Origin: Phoenicibacter congonensis
GTDB lineage: Bacteria > Actinomycetota > Coriobacteriia > Coriobacteriales > Eggerthellaceae
Length of the DNA stretch: 64,000 nucleotides
Direction: 5' to 3'
Assembly: GCF_900169485.1 (NCBI RefSeq)
Contig: NZ_LT821227.1
Coordinates: 1,364,001 to 1,428,000 of the forward strand
Part shown: positions 14,527 through 59,324 of the stretch, piece after piece
Layout: every line of letters starts with the position of its first letter
Numbering within the stretch: the first letter of the stretch is position 1
Translations under genes and position numbers: made by a program
The notes under the pieces: generated by a model
The model's database searches: none
Told to the model about the DNA's origin: nothing
What the model saw: the letters and a program-made list of their open reading frames with translations, nothing else

Positions 14527-15293
14527 TCATATTAATGACACAACCAAGCGCCTGTTCATGCCGGTAATTCGTGAAATTTGTGAAATGCTTGAACCCATTT
14601 TTAGCAGCTTTTTGACCAATCTTCGAAGAAGTTTCTTCGAAAGCGATGGGACTCTACCGAGGTTCTTTTTCTTGACCATCTTCTTCACAATATCAATAGC
14701 CTGCAAGTCCGATAACTTCTTCTTAGGAATTACCTCGCATACTTTCTTCACGCTCGAATCCATTGGCTCATGTGCAACTTTTTTAGTATATTTAATGATG
14801 TTGTCGATACCCAGATACTGAGCTAAAATTTGACAAGCCTCAGCATCAAACTCGCGAGACTCTAGCGCCTTTAACGAAGACCAACGATATCTTTCAGGTT
14901 CTTTAACCATTCCTGCCTTAACAGGATTGTTGAAAATGTATGCAACCGTTTGCAGCATTTGCTGTTCGTCCATAATTGGCTTTGAATAGTAGCGGGAATT
15001 CCAAAGGGTACCAGATCTTGCGTATTTTTGATTAAACCATTTCACATAAGAAGCTCCTACAGATTGAAAAATGTTCGCGCATTTCGCAATCTCTCCATAA
15101 AAAATAGCGTGAATATGGTTAGTCATCAGCGCGTAGACAAGCAAACCATGTCGTTCTCCTTGCAGGCTTTTCTTAGGCATTGCAAGTAATACGAATAGTC
15201 TTCAGGTTCATAAAAAATCACCTGGCCGTTGTGACCTTTTTGCCCAATATTCAAAACGCGAATGGGCGAATCACATCGAGGTTTTCTTGGCAT
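14527..15293 (-). pseudogene. REP-associated tyrosine transposase (RAYT 1), frameshifted
   Basis: Y1/HUH single-strand transposase of the IS200-like, REP-associated family. The first frame runs MPRKPRCDSPIRVLNIGQKG to about codon 50 and hits a stop after CLSTR. A second frame carries on with YALMTNHIHAIFYGE, the HUH metal-binding motif, and AYIFNNPVKAG with the nucleophilic Tyr. Both intact paralogues (34998 and 58365) are continuous here. The shift maps to the T run of GGTTTGC (complement of 15141-15147): one extra T restores MVLLVYALMTN. Either a one-base deletion has killed the gene, or there is slippage on the T run or an assembly error. A conserved upstream block lies at 15346-15420. Confidence 0.85.
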
Positions 15294-16119
15294 GGGGACC
15301 CCCTTTAACTTCAAAAAGAATCAATAAGAGAAGAATAAGAATAAAAGTGAAGAAAAATAAGAAAGAACTGCCCATCAAAAGTGAACACTATGATGTTGAA
15401 CTAGTGAAGGACAAAATGAAATAAATGTAAAAACAATACTCTATCTGGTAACTTTACTTAAATGATAGACAGAGAAGCACATTCTATGAGAAGTAAGCAA
15501 TAACGGGATCAATAAAAAAAGTCTGACCCCTAATACCTGCCCCTAATACATAAAACTGCTACGAATAGAGAGAAACACTAAAAATGCATCTTACACTCGC
15601 TTTTCTTATCTCTGCAGAGGATGTCTGACCCCATTTATTGACCTGTTACTGAAGCAATGGAAAATCAATGCACTCAAACGATTTAAAGCGTGTGGCAAAT
15701 TCTAGAAATGAAGAAAAGAGAATAACAGGCCTGAACTGGCCAACTTTAACTCCTTTGTAATTGGTAATTTAACTATCTTTCATTTAAGAAGATTAAGCCG
15801 CCAGGCAGACGGCTTAATCCAATGCTAAAGACGACAGCTCTATTTATATAGCATTTTTCTGAATTCTGAACCAAACAGACATAAAAAATTAATTCTCGTG
15901 TCGAAAACAATTCGGACACACATTTTCAGTGGACATTTTACAAGCAATAGCAAAGAGATCTTGTTCAAGGATTGCTATTTTGACGTGAAGAAGAGCTAAA
16001 CTTTGGGAGAAATTGGAGACCATGTAAATGAAGTCTGACACCATTTGCATGGGACGCCAGTTTCAAAGGAACTCTGACCCCATTTATGGGCAGACCATTA
16101 TTAATGCAAGCAAAATAAA
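15294..16119. other. Spacer with RAYT upstream block, motif copies and a perfect stem-loop
   Basis: No gene is supported. Contents: the block shared with the other RAYT genes (15346-15420), motif copies on the + strand at about 15521, 15624 and 16073, and a perfect 10-bp inverted repeat GATTAAGCCG (15791-15800) / CGGCTTAATC (15810-15819) with a 9-nt loop. The stem-loop has no T run on either side, so it may be an RNA end or processing site rather than a clean terminator. Confidence 0.55.
15346..15420 (-). promoter_or_regulatory. Conserved upstream block of RAYT 1
   Basis: Begins 53 bp upstream of the RAYT 1 start. On the + strand it reads AGTGAAGAAAAATAAGAAAG, then CCATCAAAAGTGA, then TGTTGAACTAGTGAA. 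The same ordered elements occur upstream of RAYT 2 (35821), RAYT 3 (59192) and comEA (55130). In this copy the AGCCTA box next to the gene is degraded, in keeping with a decaying gene. Confidence 0.65.
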
Positions 16120-34997: not shown

Positions 34998-35768
34998 CTA
35001 CGCAGCGAGGACGCTAACTTGATGACGTGTTAAAGTTGTGATTCGAGAAATTTGACTAATGTTAGACCCAAACTTCAGGAGTTCCTTAACTAGTTTCCGA
35101 AGAAAAGACCTGGACAGCGTTGGGATTTTACCAAGATTCTTACTTTTAACAAGTCTTTTGACTGCATCAATAACCTCAAGATCAGAGGGTGTAGTGTTCG
35201 GAATAGCTTCGCACTGTTTCTGAACATCTGAATCGAGCGTAACCTCGGCGGCCTCGTGCGTATACTGCTTGAGATAGGCAATCGAAAGTGTCGAATCAAG
35301 TATCTCTCTTGCCTTTTCGTCGAAATTTTTTGTATCCATATCCCTAAACGAGGACCATCTATAGTTCTCTGCTCGCTTCACGATGCCCGCTTTTACTGGG
35401 TTGTTAAAGATGTATGCCGCAGTTTGCAAGAATTGCTGTTCGTCCTGGACAGGCTTTGAGTAAAAGCGGGAATTCCAAAGCGTCCCCGTCCTGCCATATT
35501 TTCGGTTAAACCAGCGCACATAAGTTGAGCCAATAGATTGAAAAACACTCGCACATTTTTCAATATCCCCGTAAAACAACGCGTGGATATGGTTTGACAT
35601 CAACACATAACCAAGCAGCACTACCCCAAATTTTTTGCAGGCATTTTGCAGGCACTCAAGGTAATACTCTCGATCTTCGTCATAATAAAAAATGACCTGC
35701 CCATTGTGCCCTTTTTGCCCAATATTAAGAACACGCAGAGGCGAATCGCACCTCAAAGGTCGAGGCAT
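34998..35768 (-). CDS. REP-associated tyrosine transposase (RAYT 2), intact
   Basis: 256 aa. The metal-binding HUH motif is H60-I-H62 in MSNHIHALFYG and the presumed nucleophile is Tyr119 in AAYIFNNPVKAG. These, plus GTLWNSRFYSKP, are RAYT/Y1-transposase signatures. Residues 160-256 are an extra basic domain that ends in an HTH-like ISQISRITTLTRHQV. ATG has AAAGGAGGGC upstream. Such enzymes act on single-stranded DNA and are thought to copy or move short REP sequences. No flanking IS ends are visible, so it is a domesticated-type single gene. It lies amid GTCTGGCACC arrays and is close in sequence to RAYT 3. Confidence 0.9.
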   Translation of the reverse strand: MPRPLRCDSPLRVLNIGQKGHNGQVIFYYDEDREYYLECLQNACKKFGVVLLGYVLMSNHIHALFYGDIEKCASVFQSIGSTYVRWFNRKYGRTGTLWNSRFYSKPVQDEQQFLQTAAYIFNNPVKAGIVKRAENYRWSSFRDMDTKNFDEKAREILDSTLSIAYLKQYTHEAAEVTLDSDVQKQCEAIPNTTPSDLEVIDAVKRLVKSKNLGKIPTLSRSFLRKLVKELLKFGSNISQISRITTLTRHQVSVLAA

Positions 35769-35806
35769 AATGCCCTCCTTTCCCTGTAAGCTTTCGTTTC
35801 AACATT

Positions 35807-35900
35807 AGCCTACTCTGAATAGTGAAGAAAAATAAGAATAAACAGGTTATTCAAAACCGATAGAACAGATGTTGAACTAGTGTACGAGGAAATGAAGAAA
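35807..35900 (-). promoter_or_regulatory. Conserved upstream block of RAYT 2
   Basis: AGCCTA (35807-35812; TAGGCT on the gene strand) lies 39 bp before the start. It is followed 20 bp further by TAAGAATAAA, then GGTTATTCAAAACCGAT and ATGTTGAACTAGTG. Order and spacing match RAYT 3 and comEA. TAGGCT could be the -10 box and the distal part an operator. Confidence 0.65.
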
Positions 35901-35966
35901 AGCGAAATTGGGCTTTCAACGAGGGTGTTTTAAGTGTTTAGTTGGTTGAAATTGGTAAAAAAAGCT

Positions 35967-45599: not shown

Positions 45600-46556
45600 C
45601 ATGTCTGGCACCAGTGTTTTATGTCTGGCACCAATGATCCATGTCTGACACCTTCGCAAATGCGCATTACCAGTGTTTTATATCTGACACCAATGATCCA
45701 TGTCTGGAAGCGATGGAAAAGGGGCCCGGAAAGTATTACTGTTCTTGTCGCAAATTATGTTTCGCCCTAGTGATTTACGTCTGACACCAGTGATCCATGT
45801 CTGACACCTTTGCGATTGAATTTGTGTCTGGCACCTTTGCAAATGCGCATTACCACACGGCGGCTTGGTTAATATCTGGCACTTATGCATCATGTCTGGC
45901 ACCAGTGTTTCTTGTCTGGCACTAATGATCCATTTCTAGCACCAATGGAAGCGGAGCCAGAAAGTATTGCTGTTCTTGTCGCAAATTATGTCTGGCACCA
46001 GTGTTTGCGATTGAATTTGTGTCTGACACCTTCGCAAATGCGCATTACCACTCGGCGGCTTGATTTATGTCTGGCACTTATGATTCATGACTGGCACCAG
46101 TGTTTTGGAACCAAAGGAAAAGGGGCCCGGAAAGTATTGCTGTTCTTTTCGCAAATTATGTCTGGCACCAGTGATTTATGTCTGACACCTTCGCAAATGC
46201 GCATTACCACTCGGCGGCTTGATTTATGTCTGGCACTTATGATTCATGACTGGCACCAGTGTTTTATGTCTGACACCAATGATCCATGTCTGGAACCAAT
46301 GGAAGCGGAGCCGGAAAATATTACTGTTCTTGTCGCAAATTATGTCTGGCACCAGTGTTTTATGTCTGACACCAATGATCCATGTCTGGAGCCAATGGAA
46401 AAGGGGCCTAGTGATTTATCTCTGGCACCAGTGTTTTATGTCTGGCACCAGTGATCCATGTCTGACACCTTTGCGATTCAATTTATGTCTGACACCTTTG
46501 CGATTGAATTTATGTCTGGCACCAGTGATTTATGTCTGGCACCAGTGTCAGGACAA
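45600..46556 (+). repeat. Densest motif array: about 30 copies of GTCTGGCACCAGTG / GTCTGACACC
   Basis: Copies follow each other head to tail, often exactly 20 bp apart (e.g. 46228, 46248, 46268, 46288). Longer units recur inside: GGAAAGTATTACTGTTCTTG with CGCAAATTATG (45730, 45962, 46131, 46313) and CGCAAATGCGCATTACCAC (45657, 45839, 46034, 46193). Because the unit lacks stops in one frame, a 189-codon open frame runs through (VWHQ and SGTND repeats). It has no ribosome site and only reflects the repeat. Confidence 0.92.
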
Positions 46557-51470: not shown

Positions 51471-54002
51471 TTAGCCATGCGTGCTAACAGAAAAACCTGT
51501 CGGAAACTTCGGGGTTACTATAATCGTGCCAAGCTCATCCGTGCAAAAAACCCTCACATCATGCTTTTGAAGGAGCCCTAACGCCTCGGATGATGGATGC
51601 CCATACCTGTTCCCCTTCCCGACAGAAATCAATGCGACTGATGGTTCTAGCTCATCCAGCAATGCATCGTCAACCGAAATTTTAGAGCCATGATGGCCGA
51701 TTTTAAAAATGTCAATTGTCCCAAGGTTTTCTTGCTGAAGCAACTGCCGAAGCGGTTCTTTTTCTGCATCTCCAGTAAGCAGAGCGCAAAATTCTGCCTC
51801 AGAATCGCTATTTGCATTACAAGAAACTTTAAGGCAAACACTATCTTCGTTCCCTCCTTCATTCGAGAATTCCATCGGCCACACAACCTTGCATGAAAAA
51901 TTCCCAGCTCGAACGCAATCACCAACTGTCAAACCGCACAACTCTTTCCCAGTGGCTTCTGTAGCGGCGGATCGAAGTCGATTGCATCCCTCACAAGCGC
52001 AAGTTTTCGCATCTGCGGCAGAATTAACAGCGCCTATGCTTTCGTAACTCCTAAGAACCTCCAAACAACCCATGTGGTCGTCATCGTGATGGGTTATTAG
52101 AACCCCATCTAGCGAAAATACGCCCAACTTAGCCAATCCTGTTCTTAATTTTGTTTCATTGTTCCCAGTATCAACGAGAAAATTGCAACCGTTGCTTTGA
52201 ATTAATATAGCGTCTCCCTGTCCCACATCTATAAAAGCAATTCGGTTTTGTGGAACGATGAAGGAGACAAAAACAAAAGCAAACGGCAGCATTATGCAAA
52301 CAGAAAGAGATGCGCAAGCCAGCCTTCTGCTTAATTTTGGCCAAACAACAATAAGACTTAGAGCGAGAAGAGCAGAGAATAAAATCGATAGAACCACGTC
52401 AAAATCCAACGGTATGCAAGCAAAAGGAATTCTGCCCAGAATTTCGACGCACTCGTAAAGCGGAAATGCAACAACAGATGCGCCAAAACAACAAAAACTC
52501 GCAATGGCGGGAAAAAAGATAGAAATCAGGGCTGTCAAAAGTCCAAACACGCACGCAGCAGAGAAAAGAGGAGTAGCAATCATATTAGCAATCACGGAAA
52601 TTGTCGATATTTGCGAAAAGATAGCAGCTGAAAAAGGTAGCGTCATCAAATTAGCTGCCATGGTGAGAGCAATCGGCTGAATGATGATGCCATTTGCGAC
52701 TTTATTTCTGCAATCAGCCCATGAACTAAACAATCGCGCAAACACAATTATCCCGAATGTCGAAGCAGAAGAGAGATATAGAGAAACCGATGTGCACGTT
52801 GAAGCATCGGCAACAATAAAAAGAATTATGCAAAGAGAAAGCGCGTTTAAAGAATCCGCGCGTCTTTCCTGGACACCAGCAATCAGACACAAAACCACCA
52901 TTATCGCTGATCTAACTGCCGAGATGGGAATACCAGAAAATAGAAGATAACAAAGAACAATTGCAACAGACGAAAACGAAGATGCGCGATGACTGACCTT
53001 GAATTTTTTTAGCAATAACAGAAAAAAGCTAACAACAATTGCAAGATGTGCGCCAGAAACGGCAACCGTGTGAGCCAACCCACAGACCTTAAACTCTTCG
53101 TATGTTCCATCATCTTCAATGGTGTTTTTATAGCCGCAAACTAAAGCCTGCAACAGCCCACCGCACTGCCCTCCGAAAGTCTCGAAATTGCGGATTGAAT
53201 CTCTGCGCATGTTCACAACTGCAGATAGGACAGGGTTTATCGAAACAGTTTCAGCTTTCGAAACCTTAAGGATTGAACAAACGGAGCGATTAAAGTTAAA
53301 GTCTTTAGACTCAGGCTTTAGACTCTTAAAAGTCCCTTTCACTTTCAGCTTTTCTCCCACCAAAACACATGTGTTCTTGTCAAGATAGGCGAGCACTCGC
53401 AAATCTCTGAAATCTTTCGAATTAAGCGAAAGAATTGTTTGATTACCAAACTCTCCCGTCGTGGAGTCTTCTAACACTTGCGCATCAATTTCTGCGACTG
53501 ACGAATTTAGTGCAATTATCGCGTTGGATTCTAGAGAAACGTTTTTGTAAACACCAAGCGTAGCACCTAGCATCAAAAAGCTAAGCAGAAGAAAAAGCCA
53601 TCGACGCTGCTTGTGGACACACGCAAACAAAGAGATTAAAAGACCGAACGCAAACACAGACAAAAGCGTGTTCTTCATGGAATCATCGAAACTTCGCGTA
53701 CCTAAAAAAGAGAGAAGACACGATCCCCAAAGAATGAGCGAACAAGGCAAAAGAAAAGGCATTGAAGGTTTGCGCGGCGTTTTATCGTCGATGACAACAT
53801 CGAAATTCGCACCTTGTTCGCCAGTCGAAATAGCAAAATCATGCCCAGCGCCATGAATGCTTCCAAACTTTTTCTTTCTGATTTTCAAAGTCGAAAAAGC
53901 TGAAACCAACTTTTGCAAAGAGAAGGGTAACCGCACCAAGAAGCTCAAGGCACAGAGCTTTTTCAGAAAGAATGAACGTAACTTTTTCAGTCGCCTAATC
54001 AC
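51471..54002 (-). CDS. comEC: DNA uptake channel protein ComEC/Rec2
   Basis: 843-aa inner-membrane channel for single-stranded DNA during transformation. A basic N-terminal region is followed by two helices and an OB-fold-like soluble part (EIDAQVLEDSTTGEF... LKVKGTF), then the Competence domain with about eight helices (VCGLAHTVAVSGAHLAIVVS), and the C-terminal MBL domain FIDVGQGDAILIQ, ITHHDDDHMGCLE, GHHGSKISVDD. All three parts are intact. GTG start at 54000-54002. It is the third gene of comEA-hypothetical-comEC. Confidence 0.93.
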   Translation of the reverse strand: MIRRLKKLRSFFLKKLCALSFLVRLPFSLQKLVSAFSTLKIRKKKFGSIHGAGHDFAISTGEQGANFDVVIDDKTPRKPSMPFLLPCSLILWGSCLLSFLGTRSFDDSMKNTLLSVFAFGLLISLFACVHKQRRWLFLLLSFLMLGATLGVYKNVSLESNAIIALNSSVAEIDAQVLEDSTTGEFGNQTILSLNSKDFRDLRVLAYLDKNTCVLVGEKLKVKGTFKSLKPESKDFNFNRSVCSILKVSKAETVSINPVLSAVVNMRRDSIRNFETFGGQCGGLLQALVCGYKNTIEDDGTYEEFKVCGLAHTVAVSGAHLAIVVSFFLLLLKKFKVSHRASSFSSVAIVLCYLLFSGIPISAVRSAIMVVLCLIAGVQERRADSLNALSLCIILFIVADASTCTSVSLYLSSASTFGIIVFARLFSSWADCRNKVANGIIIQPIALTMAANLMTLPFSAAIFSQISTISVIANMIATPLFSAACVFGLLTALISIFFPAIASFCCFGASVVAFPLYECVEILGRIPFACIPLDFDVVLSILFSALLALSLIVVWPKLSRRLACASLSVCIMLPFAFVFVSFIVPQNRIAFIDVGQGDAILIQSNGCNFLVDTGNNETKLRTGLAKLGVFSLDGVLITHHDDDHMGCLEVLRSYESIGAVNSAADAKTCACEGCNRLRSAATEATGKELCGLTVGDCVRAGNFSCKVVWPMEFSNEGGNEDSVCLKVSCNANSDSEAEFCALLTGDAEKEPLRQLLQQENLGTIDIFKIGHHGSKISVDDALLDELEPSVALISVGKGNRYGHPSSEALGLLQKHDVRVFCTDELGTIIVTPKFPTGFSVSTHG

Positions 54003-54010
54003 AGGAGTCT

Positions 54011-54400
54011 CTAGCTATCAAACGACGAAATAATATTTGAACAGGGCATTGAAAATAAAGCCAGAGCATGACCATCTAAAAGCGGACGAGTACGCAGGAT
54101 GCAACGAATCTGATGTTTAACAATGATTATCAAAAGGCGCTGCTTTTTAGTGCTAATTTTTGATTCTTTGCATGGTCCGAACCGGTCCACAATTGCACAA
54201 GACCTACATGCAGAAAAACAGTACCTAAATAAAAACCGTCCCAATTCAACAGCAATTAAAAACGACATCGGAATTTCTGAAACATTTACCACAGGAATAC
54301 AAATCAATGCAAATCTATTGCTTGATTTTTGTCGTACGCACTTCACGATAACTTGTGGAGTAAAAAACAATGCAAGCTGGATTTTTAAATTCAAACGCAT
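54011..54400 (-). CDS. Hypothetical protein between comEA and comEC
   Basis: 129 aa, with hydrophobic RFALICIPVVNVSEIPMSFL and several Cys. It is not recognised. Evidence for a real gene: the ATG has AGGAG six bases upstream, it overlaps the end of comEA by ten bases, and it stops eight bases before comEC, so it tiles the gap exactly. Against it: its composition is odd and a competing 96-codon frame exists on the other strand. Confidence 0.45.
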   Translation of the reverse strand: MRLNLKIQLALFFTPQVIVKCVRQKSSNRFALICIPVVNVSEIPMSFLIAVELGRFLFRYCFSACRSCAIVDRFGPCKESKISTKKQRLLIIIVKHQIRCILRTRPLLDGHALALFSMPCSNIISSFDS

Positions 54401-55074
54401 ATCTGACTCCTAATGGACTCAAGAGTCTTTACACCAATTCCACTAACATTCGTTAAATCGTCGACGGACTTAAAGGAGCCGTTTTGCTTTCGGTACTCAA
54501 TGATTTTTTGCGCCTTAGAAGGACCAATGCCTGAAATTGTTTGTAGAAGTGAGGCATCTGCGGTGTTTATGTTTACCTTCCCCGCTCCCGACGCACCACC
54601 GCTTCCTTGCAAAGTAGATGCTCCCGAACTTCTCTTTGCAGCCGAACCCGAAAGTGTTTCGTCCGCAGCACCATCAGCATCGACCTCAGGCTCGACTTTA
54701 GCTGGGATGATAATCTGTTCGCCATCCTCGCATTTCTTTGCTAAATTCACAGAATTTAGATCGGCATTCTCTGTCGCTCCGCCGGCCAGCTCAATAGCCT
54801 GAGACACACGCGCATCGGCATCTAGCTCTTGCAGCCCTGGATTATTAACTTCCCCTGCGACATGAACAAATATTTTTTTAGAATCAACAACATCATCTTT
54901 AGAATTCACGCTTTCGACCTCAAATCCCGAATTTTCACCAGTGGTAAAAACATTAAAAGCAAAGTAAGCAATCGCAACTATAAGAAGCAAGGCGATTCCT
55001 ACCATATAGACTGGCTTTTGGTTCTTCTCTTTTTCATCCTCCTTGAAATTAGAGGCAAATTCTTGGAATGGCAC
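54391..55074 (-). CDS. comEA: Competence DNA receptor ComEA
   Basis: Membrane-anchored receptor that binds double-stranded DNA and passes it to ComEC. About 227 aa. One transmembrane helix (about 20-40), an SLBB domain (FVHVAGEVNNPGLQEL... CEDGEQIIIPAK), a Ser/Gly linker, and two helix-hairpin-helix motifs (VNINTADASLLQTISGIGPS and VDDLTNVSGIGVKTLESIR). The frame starts at ATG 55089, but AAGGAGG sits directly before a GTG five codons in (55074), so that is the probable start. Upstream lies the block shared with RAYT genes. Confidence 0.9.
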   Translation of the reverse strand: MPFQEFASNFKEDEKEKNQKPVYMVGIALLLIVAIAYFAFNVFTTGENSGFEVESVNSKDDVVDSKKIFVHVAGEVNNPGLQELDADARVSQAIELAGGATENADLNSVNLAKKCEDGEQIIIPAKVEPEVDADGAADETLSGSAAKRSSGASTLQGSGGASGAGKVNINTADASLLQTISGIGPSKAQKIIEYRKQNGSFKSVDDLTNVSGIGVKTLESIRSQICV

Positions 55075-55107
55075 AAGCACCTCCTTCATTCAAATTGCTA
55101 ACTCAAA

Positions 55108-55200
55108 AGCCTAGCTTGAACAATCCAAAAAACTAAGAAAGAATTACCCACCAAAAGTGAATAAACAAGTGTTGAACGAGTGAATACAGAAATGAAAAAA
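55108..55200 (-). promoter_or_regulatory. RAYT-type conserved block upstream of comEA
   Basis: AGCCTA (55108-55113; TAGGCT on the gene strand, 34 bp before the comEA GTG). Exactly 20 bases further come TAAGAAAGAA, then CCACCAAAAGTGAATAA and GTGTTGAACGAGTGAA. The RAYT 3 upstream region has AGCCTA, 20 bases, TAAGAAAGAA, TATCCAAAACTGATGA, GTGTTGAATAAGTGAA. The match in both bases and spacing is too good for chance. Confidence 0.7.
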
Positions 55201-55265
55201 TGCACTGACACTGGGAAAATAATACAGAATCTAAATGAAATTGCCGCTTTTGCAGATGAGACACA

Positions 55266-55595
55266 TTCATGTCTGGCACCAGTGTAAATGGCCGACAATC
55301 ATGACTGGCACCAGTGTATAAATCGTGGTTACACAGGCATAATTGACTGGAGTCTAGGAAAATCGACGCCTTATTAAAGCGTTAATTCGACAGATAATAC
55401 AAAATTGAAGAAATGAAACATTTCTAATAATACATTTAAGTGCATGTCTGGCACCAGTGCTTCATGCCTGGCACCATTGTAAACTCACGACACAAATTCA
55501 TGTCTGACACTAATGCGTGATGACTGACCCCAGTGTTATTTCACGACACAAATTCATGTCTGGCACCAGTGCTTCATGACCGCCACCAGTGTAAA
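55266..55595 (+). repeat. GTCTGGCACCAGTG / GACTGGCACCAGTG cluster
   Basis: About ten copies between comEA and thiI, including pairs 20 bp apart (CATGTCTGGCACCAGTGCTT then CATGCCTGGCACCATTG). The GACTGGCACC variant first becomes common here. No gene is present. Confidence 0.82.
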
Positions 55596-58364: not shown

Positions 58365-59135
58365 TTACGTCGCAAGAATGCCAACTTGATGCCTAGTCAG
58401 ACCCGTGACCCGAGAAATTTGATTTATATTAGATCCAAGTTTTAGAAGCGACTTCACAAGTTTTCTTAAAAGTGACCTGGACAGAGCAGATATTTTGCCA
58501 AGATTTTTCTCTTTCACAATTCGTTTCACCGCATCAATCACCAACATATCCGATGGCGTGCTGTTTGGAATCACTTCGAACTCTTTCTCGTCATCGGGAC
58601 TCATTTGACTCTCGGCAACATCATGTGTGTACTGCTTGAGATACGAAATCGAGAGCGTAGTATCCAGGATTTCCTTAGCTTTAGCATCGATTTTTTCAGA
58701 ATCTAGATCCTTGAATGAAGACCACTTGTAATTTTCTGCCCGCTTGGCCATTCCCGCCTTGACGGGGTTGTTGAAAATGTATGCGGCGGTTTGCAAAAAT
58801 TGCAGCTCATCCTGCACAGGTTTCGAATAAAAACGCGAATTCCACAAGGTGCCCGACCGGCCATATTTTCGATTAAACCACTTAACGTACCGCGACCCAA
58901 TGGATCTAAAAACCTTGTCGCACTTTTTAATGTCCCCATAAAACAGCGCATGAATGTGGTTCGACATCAGCACGTAGGCGAGCAACACTATCCCGAACTT
59001 ATCGCATGCATTTTGCAGGCATTCAATGTAATACCCACGGTCCTCATCAGAATAAAAAATTACCTGGTCGTTGTGCCCTTTTTGCCCGATATTTAGAACC
59101 CCAATCGGAGAGTTGCATCTTGGCGGTCTTGACAT
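58365..59135 (-). CDS. REP-associated tyrosine transposase (RAYT 3), intact
   Basis: 256 aa and colinear with RAYT 2 over its whole length. HUH is H60-I-H62 (LMSNHIHALFYG), Tyr119 is in AAYIFNNPVKAG, and the C-terminal HTH-like segment reads INQISRVTGLTRHQVG. ATG has GAGGAGACAAA upstream. N-terminal PRCNSPIGVLNIGQKGHN is shared with the other two copies. It sits among GTCTGTCACC and GACTGGCAC arrays, a different motif flavour from RAYT 1 and RAYT 2. No inverted ends or target duplications are visible. Confidence 0.9.
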   Translation of the reverse strand: MSRPPRCNSPIGVLNIGQKGHNDQVIFYSDEDRGYYIECLQNACDKFGIVLLAYVLMSNHIHALFYGDIKKCDKVFRSIGSRYVKWFNRKYGRSGTLWNSRFYSKPVQDELQFLQTAAYIFNNPVKAGMAKRAENYKWSSFKDLDSEKIDAKAKEILDTTLSISYLKQYTHDVAESQMSPDDEKEFEVIPNSTPSDMLVIDAVKRIVKEKNLGKISALSRSLLRKLVKSLLKLGSNINQISRVTGLTRHQVGILAT

Positions 59136-59177
59136 TTTGTCTCCTCTTTCTCGCGAAGTCTTAATTGTTGATAAATA

Positions 59178-59260
59178 AGCCTAGTCATAAAAGTGAAGAA
59201 AAATAAGAAAGAAATGGTTATCCAAAACTGATGATTTAAGTGTTGAATAAGTGAACATCA
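59178..59260 (-). promoter_or_regulatory. Conserved upstream block of RAYT 3
   Basis: AGCCTA (59178-59183) 43 bp before the start, TAAGAAAGAA 20 bases further, then TATCCAAAACTGATGA and GTGTTGAATAAGTGAA. Best match to the block upstream of comEA. Confidence 0.65.
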
Positions 59261-59324
59261 AGATGATGATTTTGTAAAAAATAAGTCTATGCTGGGTAAT
59301 CTCGAAGATAATTTCAGCAGAAAT

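Follow-up and report, generated by a model that had tools for sequence, protein, structure and literature searches.

Why should comEA share its upstream DNA with transposase genes of the RAYT family? The question arises in a 64,000-bp stretch of the Phoenicibacter genome (positions 1364001-1428000 of a single contig of 1,447,956 bp; "the window", numbered from its own first base), where the initial annotation had noticed one block of sequence upstream of comEA and of three RAYT genes. Two explanations had been offered: either the RAYTs belong to the competence regulon, or comEA came by its promoter from a fourth RAYT that has since been lost. RAYT (TnpAREP) genes are usually single-copy and vertically inherited. 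Their use to the host, and the reason for their retention, are unsettled, and a promoter link to DNA uptake would provide a testable setting in the form of competent cells, which are rich in single-stranded DNA. The ComK, ComX/SigX and TfoX/Sxy-CRP regulons are cases in which one cis-element co-ordinates the genes for the DNA-uptake pilus, ComEA/ComEC, DprA, RecA and SSB. Our literature search, carried out mostly without subscription journals, found no description of a competence operator or of competence regulation for Coriobacteriia, and no published report of the RAYT-competence link that had been suspected to be new.

The comEA promoter block and its copies at three RAYT genes

All four claimed copies of the block were recovered in place on the minus strand, upstream of comEA (55105..55203), RAYT3 (59175..59274), RAYT2 (35804..35903) and RAYT1 (15329..15428). 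They align over ~100 bp with a mean column identity of 77% (MAFFT), and a profile built from them returned E values of 2.6e-22, 2.3e-22, 1.9e-22 and 7e-21, respectively. From the gene outwards, the comEA block comprises the -10-like TAGGCT (55108-55113), the word TTCTTTCTTA (55134-55143) and the repeat units TTCACTTTTG (55152-55161), TTCAACAC (55169-55176), TTCACT (55179-55184) and TTCATTT (55190-55196), all on the minus strand; its words follow the order TAGGCT, TTCTTTCTTA, TTTTGG, TTCAACAC. TAGGCT had been described as part of the block, which applies to comEA, RAYT3 (59178-59183) and RAYT2 (35808-35813) and fails for RAYT1, where TATTCT (15332-15337) stands instead. Its distance to the start codon in the three former cases, 33-42 bp given a comEA start at GTG 55074, bears out the spacing reported before. 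The same goes for the match of comEA and RAYT3 in both sequence and spacing: a gapped three-word pattern matched these two only within the window and gave 0 matches in 100 shuffles. Searched one at a time, the single words were no commoner in the window than expected by chance. The block is longer than first described and modular, being composed of direct repeats of ~11 bp and a -10-like TAnnnT.

The gene behind the block, comEA (54391..55074, minus strand), encodes SLBB and helix-hairpin-helix domains; the closest match of its product, in a MAG labelled Phoenicibacter congonensis, reached 58% best-segment identity. Its longest open reading frame starts at ATG 55089, and GTG 55074 is the likelier start because AGGAGG precedes it, while ATG 55089 begins ahead of the gene's own Shine-Dalgarno sequence. 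Downstream on the same strand lies comEC (51471..54002; Competence and Lactamase_B domains). An open reading frame of 129 aa without Pfam match is located between the two genes (54011-54400). RAYT3 (58365..59135) and RAYT2 (34998..35768), both on the minus strand, encode Y1_Tnp transposases of 256 aa, and RAYT1 (14542..15293, minus strand) is broken by stops and a frameshift.

The block precedes DNA-uptake operons across the genome

Hits of a four-copy profile upstream of further competence genes had been named as the outcome that would support a regulon. We scanned this profile over the whole genome and located the competence genes only after the matches had been listed. Apart from profile searches, selected stretches of the genome were read. 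Nine matches were obtained at E<1e-13, namely six RAYTs, comEA and the sites 1161885 and 517526; strong copies thus exist outside the window in addition to its own four, which score E ~1e-21 to 1e-22. Site 1161885 (E 1.4e-17) is situated directly before yraN-comM-dprA, which holds the single DprA gene of the genome. Site 85737 (E 1.8e-4) lies directly before the Tad-pilus operon (cpaB, cpaE, cpaF, tadB, tadC) with the only T2SSE ATPase above cut-off, and site 1023788 (E 0.004) precedes recA. A weak match, site 342878, was found ~300 bp ahead of rpsF-ssb-rpsR (E 3.5; 0.93 with the three-unit model described below). Competence operons thus stand behind three of the four non-RAYT matches at E<0.01 outside the training set, and it was the regulon alternative that the scan supported: one cis-element lies upstream of several DNA-uptake operons, i.e. 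comEA, yraN-comM-dprA, tad, recA and, weakly, ssb.

The observed specificity is genome-wide, and the copies are positioned at a fixed distance before start codons and in gene orientation. Five weak sites (763009, 679637, 1108477, 543403 and 781325), representing three further matches of the three-unit model at E<1 and two weaker ones, all proved intragenic on inspection. Site 517526 (E 8.7e-14) precedes the gene of a 1049-aa SpaA-domain surface protein. This protein (517526-520799 of the contig) ends in an MPDTG sortase-like signal, and its gene is the only clear block carrier outside the competence genes and the RAYTs.

Tandem repeats, -10 geometry and candidate regulators

The core of the block is an array of direct repeats, TTCACTNNTTC, in steps of 11 or 12 bp; the comEA array reads TTCATTTCTGTA/TTCACTCGTTC/AACACTTGTTTA/TTCACTTTTGG. 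A unit matrix was built from the core competence promoters only, with units delineated by hand, an EM motif search having collapsed into T-rich sequence. Applied to 224 kb of own-genome DNA, it gave the highest ranks to these competence promoters and to RAYT promoters, among them the promoter of the diverged RAYT at 349.8k. Lag periodicity by itself was not significant at comEA and comM of this genome because the spacing there mixes 11 and 12 bp. In 10 of the 21 promoters tested in two species, the distance from the start of a TTCACT unit to TAnnnT is exactly 14 bp, these ten being promoters of RAYTs, yraN and the sister-species ssb; the window as a whole contains six instances of the TTCACT-14 bp-TAnnnT composite when both strands are counted. 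Promoters of the comEA type (comEA, the RAYTs at 1012k and 595k, SpaA and ssb) carry a TTGGAATGTTCAA-type arrangement before TAnnnT and not the 14-bp geometry.

Direct repeats of 11 bp are typical of binding sites for OmpR/PhoB-family regulators. The genome encodes four OmpR-type regulators (positions 1039429, 1315040, 1096720 and 1000483), which are candidates for binding the block, no binding data being available. One of them, an orphan, GlnR-like response regulator (position 1096720), follows a glutamine-synthetase-like gene. The PHO box of Streptomyces coelicolor consists of 11-bp repeats around GTTCACC (PMC9019756), which resembles TTCACT. However, the targets here are competence genes and the unit differs by genus. 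As no clear TTCACT array was seen in the region between pstS and phoB, PhoB itself is not singled out and remains unsupported as the regulator.

Conservation of the array in the sister species

The genus is represented by two species only, and one of the genomes is an 84%-complete MAG. RAYTs of the sister species (G001) are 47-52% identical to RAYT3. There, TTCACTGTTCT arrays precede comEA, yraN-comM-dprA and recA and also both RAYTs (L159, L144). A three-unit model, built on both Phoenicibacter species with the G001 tad and ssb promoters kept outside the training set, was scanned over both genomes. It detected the comEA block of the window with E 1.4e-6 and returned at E<1 in G001 comEA, recA, comM-dprA, tad, rpsF-ssb, both RAYTs and one unresolved contig-end site. 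Hence, conservation was observed at all five competence loci (comEA, comM-dprA, tad, recA and ssb), together with the sharing of the array by the RAYTs of a second species. A further array, of TTCACAGTTCATTCACTTTTGG, follows a P-II (glnB-like) gene at a contig end of G001 (C390:4561-4585), where the contig stops short of the target gene.

A predicted competence regulon that includes RAYT genes

We consider it about 80% probable that the block represents the promoter/operator of a competence (DNA-uptake) regulon of which the RAYTs are members, an estimate made without expression or binding data. What these loci share is promoter DNA; shared expression, and with it co-transcription, is inferred from sequence. 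As in the competence regulons of Firmicutes and Proteobacteria, one element would serve the uptake pilus, comEA/comEC, dprA, recA and ssb, whereas here the element is a tandem 11-bp array, the pilus is of the Tad type, RAYTs are included and the regulator is unidentified. For this class of gut Actinobacteria, the prediction provides an operator sequence and narrows the candidate regulators to four.

We propose that a regulator binding head-to-tail, most simply a response regulator of the OmpR/PhoB family, would occupy the tandem ~11-bp TTCACTNNTTC repeats; its type is an inference. In one promoter class the last repeat starts 14 bp upstream of TAnnnT, in the place expected of a -35 element, and a class-II activator mode is therefore proposed; that the regulator activates and does not repress is likewise inferred. 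Its targets, all switched on at the same time, would be comEA-comEC, yraN-comM-dprA, the Tad pilus operon, recA, rpsF-ssb and the RAYTs. The latter might then be made when single-stranded DNA is plentiful, with REPs on strands that enter the cell or recombine as possible substrates. Y1 transposases act on single-stranded DNA (PMC6006769, PMC8266576) and competence supplies it; RAYT action on it during competence is inferred. M. luteus is likewise an actinobacterium with ComEA/ComEC and a Tad pilus, and its Tad genes are needed for transformation (PMC4322843). In contrast to our case, the parts of that report available to us describe no 11-bp array for regulation and mention no RAYT link.

RAYT copies and their promoters within and outside the genus

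The RAYT family criterion of a PF01797 Y1 transposase domain together with an HUH motif (HIH in SNHIHALFYG) is met, as is that of flanking REP-like repeats, which surround RAYT2 and RAYT3. In Y1 transposase fold (Pfam), HUH motif and adjoining REP-like repeats the genes resemble known RAYTs, but they depart from these in their many copies per genome, some of them recent duplicates, and in their competence-type promoter. About nine RAYT loci are present, pairs of which are 91-95% identical over 2-2.5 kb, and several are broken. Duplication took place in units of ~2-2.5 kb, the promoter and REP-like repeats being copied along with the gene. The genes thus depart from the usual single copy, and their number would suit a subgroup of the RAYTs or a relative of greater mobility. 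One RAYT, with 96% identity to RAYT3, is truncated at the contig end (1447330-1447956), and the contig start (1-420) has RAYT3-like upstream DNA without the block; a minor gap in the assembly, at a repeat, probably separates the two.

In the RAYT tree, the full-length Phoenicibacter genes tested group in a single clade (100/100), and two promoter subtypes track its split. Subtype A is closest to comEA (85.6% over 90 bp between the RAYT at 1012k and the comEA block) and subtype B to yraN-dprA (80% over 120 bp). We infer from these likenesses that competence operons were the source of the RAYT promoters, possibly on two occasions in this genus and independently in other genera. Regarding the latter, RAYT upstream regions were compared with those of comEA, comM and recA of the same genome, cross-genome pairs serving as null. 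Similarity at z>4 was seen in 11/63 own-genome pairs versus 14/2169 cross pairs and, without Phoenicibacter, in 6/57 versus 14/1989 (Fisher p 1e-5). The clearest cases are G014, with three of three RAYTs matching comEA, and G029, with one RAYT (L163) matching comEA and recA; one RAYT each in G025 (L168) and G024 (L155) resembles recA more weakly. Exact matches to the 15-mer TGTATAGAAAAATAA number three in the whole G014 genome, one before comEA and one before each of two RAYTs, whereas at the remaining RAYT it has one mismatch; none of the other one-mismatch sites genome-wide is a competence-gene promoter. Thus, RAYTs and their own comEA or recA have promoter elements in common in at least two further genera, with sequences unrelated to those of Phoenicibacter. 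For most other RAYTs outside the genus no competence-like promoter was seen.

What the RAYTs contribute is a separate matter. We hold it possible, as a tentative view, that they are working parts of Coriobacteriia competence which process single-stranded DNA at uptake, e.g. by cut-and-paste reactions at REPs, that the spread of REPs would thereby be coupled to transformation, and that this arrangement arose more than once on unrelated competence promoters. A serious contender, if short of even odds, is that selfish RAYTs copied a competence promoter, are co-expressed and serve only their own spread, the single-stranded DNA of competent cells being merely a good substrate and the host gaining nothing. 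Their duplication together with the promoter, the several broken copies and promoter stretches that look copied (80-86% over 90-120 bp) are in line with such hijacking. However, diverged RAYTs of both species have retained the promoter, and it recurs in other genera, which fits selection without proving host benefit. Whether the host benefits or the RAYTs merely ride along cannot be told from these data.

Competence genes carry 11-bp arrays in many genera of the Coriobacteriia

The regulon might also respond to DNA damage or single-stranded DNA stress and not to competence, as recA, ssb and comM-dprA are recombination genes and RAYTs would fit such a response, too. We regard this as improbable: the Tad pilus operon and comEA-comEC, for which we know of no repair role, carry the array in both species, and the array is unlike the usual LexA palindrome. 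A competence regulon remains the preferred reading, and its array was followed beyond the genus by autocorrelation of upstream sequence, each genus being represented by a single genome (28 other genomes for each gene, Phoenicibacter excluded). Mean z values at lags 11 and 22 amounted to 2.06 and 1.70 for recA, 2.00 and 1.40 for comM and 1.25 and 0.90 for comEA, while 3' flanks and gene bodies, used as controls, gave lag-11/22 signals near or below zero; z exceeded 3 in 25/84 upstream regions versus 3/165 flanks. Both the lag peaks and the unit arrays across genera indicate tandem direct repeats of 11 bp, the mixture of 11 and 12 at the Phoenicibacter comEA notwithstanding. The units at recA, comEA and comM-dprA recur within one genome (leave-one-out z 4-11 in G001, G004, G008, G011, G016, G023 and others). 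The unit sequence is genus-specific (e.g. TTCACT, GCTGGATT, TGCAAGATT) and the 11-bp period is kept, and the operator could therefore serve for predicting competence genes in many genomes of uncultured organisms.

These data bear on the second explanation of the initial annotation, that the promoter of comEA came from a lost fourth RAYT and that the other copies are RAYT property. In its favour, comEA adjoins many REP-like repeats and its block is close to that of the RAYT at 1012k. However, the sister species has the array before comEA, dprA, recA, tad and ssb, arrays with other units stand before comEA, dprA and recA in many genera, including those in which no RAYT was found, and no RAYT scar was seen at comEA. 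Since the arrays recur at competence genes across genera, capture from a RAYT is disfavoured and in our judgement very improbable; as far as upstream regions can tell, the array is ancestral to the competence genes and the RAYTs are recruits. Equally hard to maintain is the notion that the block is a dispersed repeat without regulatory role, lying before these genes by chance: RAYTs are thought to spread short repeats and the genome is rich in REP-like ones, but copies were confined to one position, a set distance ahead of the start codons of a functionally coherent group of genes, and to the orientation of these genes, the weak intragenic matches being noise, differently sequenced arrays precede the same genes across the order, and no intact blocks were seen away from promoters.

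Orientation of the REP-like repeats

A cluster of the REP-like 15-mer TGTCTGGCACCAGTG (55262..55591, plus strand) is located upstream of the comEA block. With up to 3 mismatches allowed, this 15-mer is oriented by replichore; copies in the window lie e.g. at 45602-46547 and 55262-55591. Segments of negative GC skew (the window, L001, L002 and L233) contain 208 copies on the plus and 7 on the minus strand, and the positive-skew segment L107 contains 0 and 52, respectively. Such a bias is in keeping with insertions that enter a single strand at the replication fork. The copies are often arranged as direct repeats 20 bp apart, not as inverted pairs.
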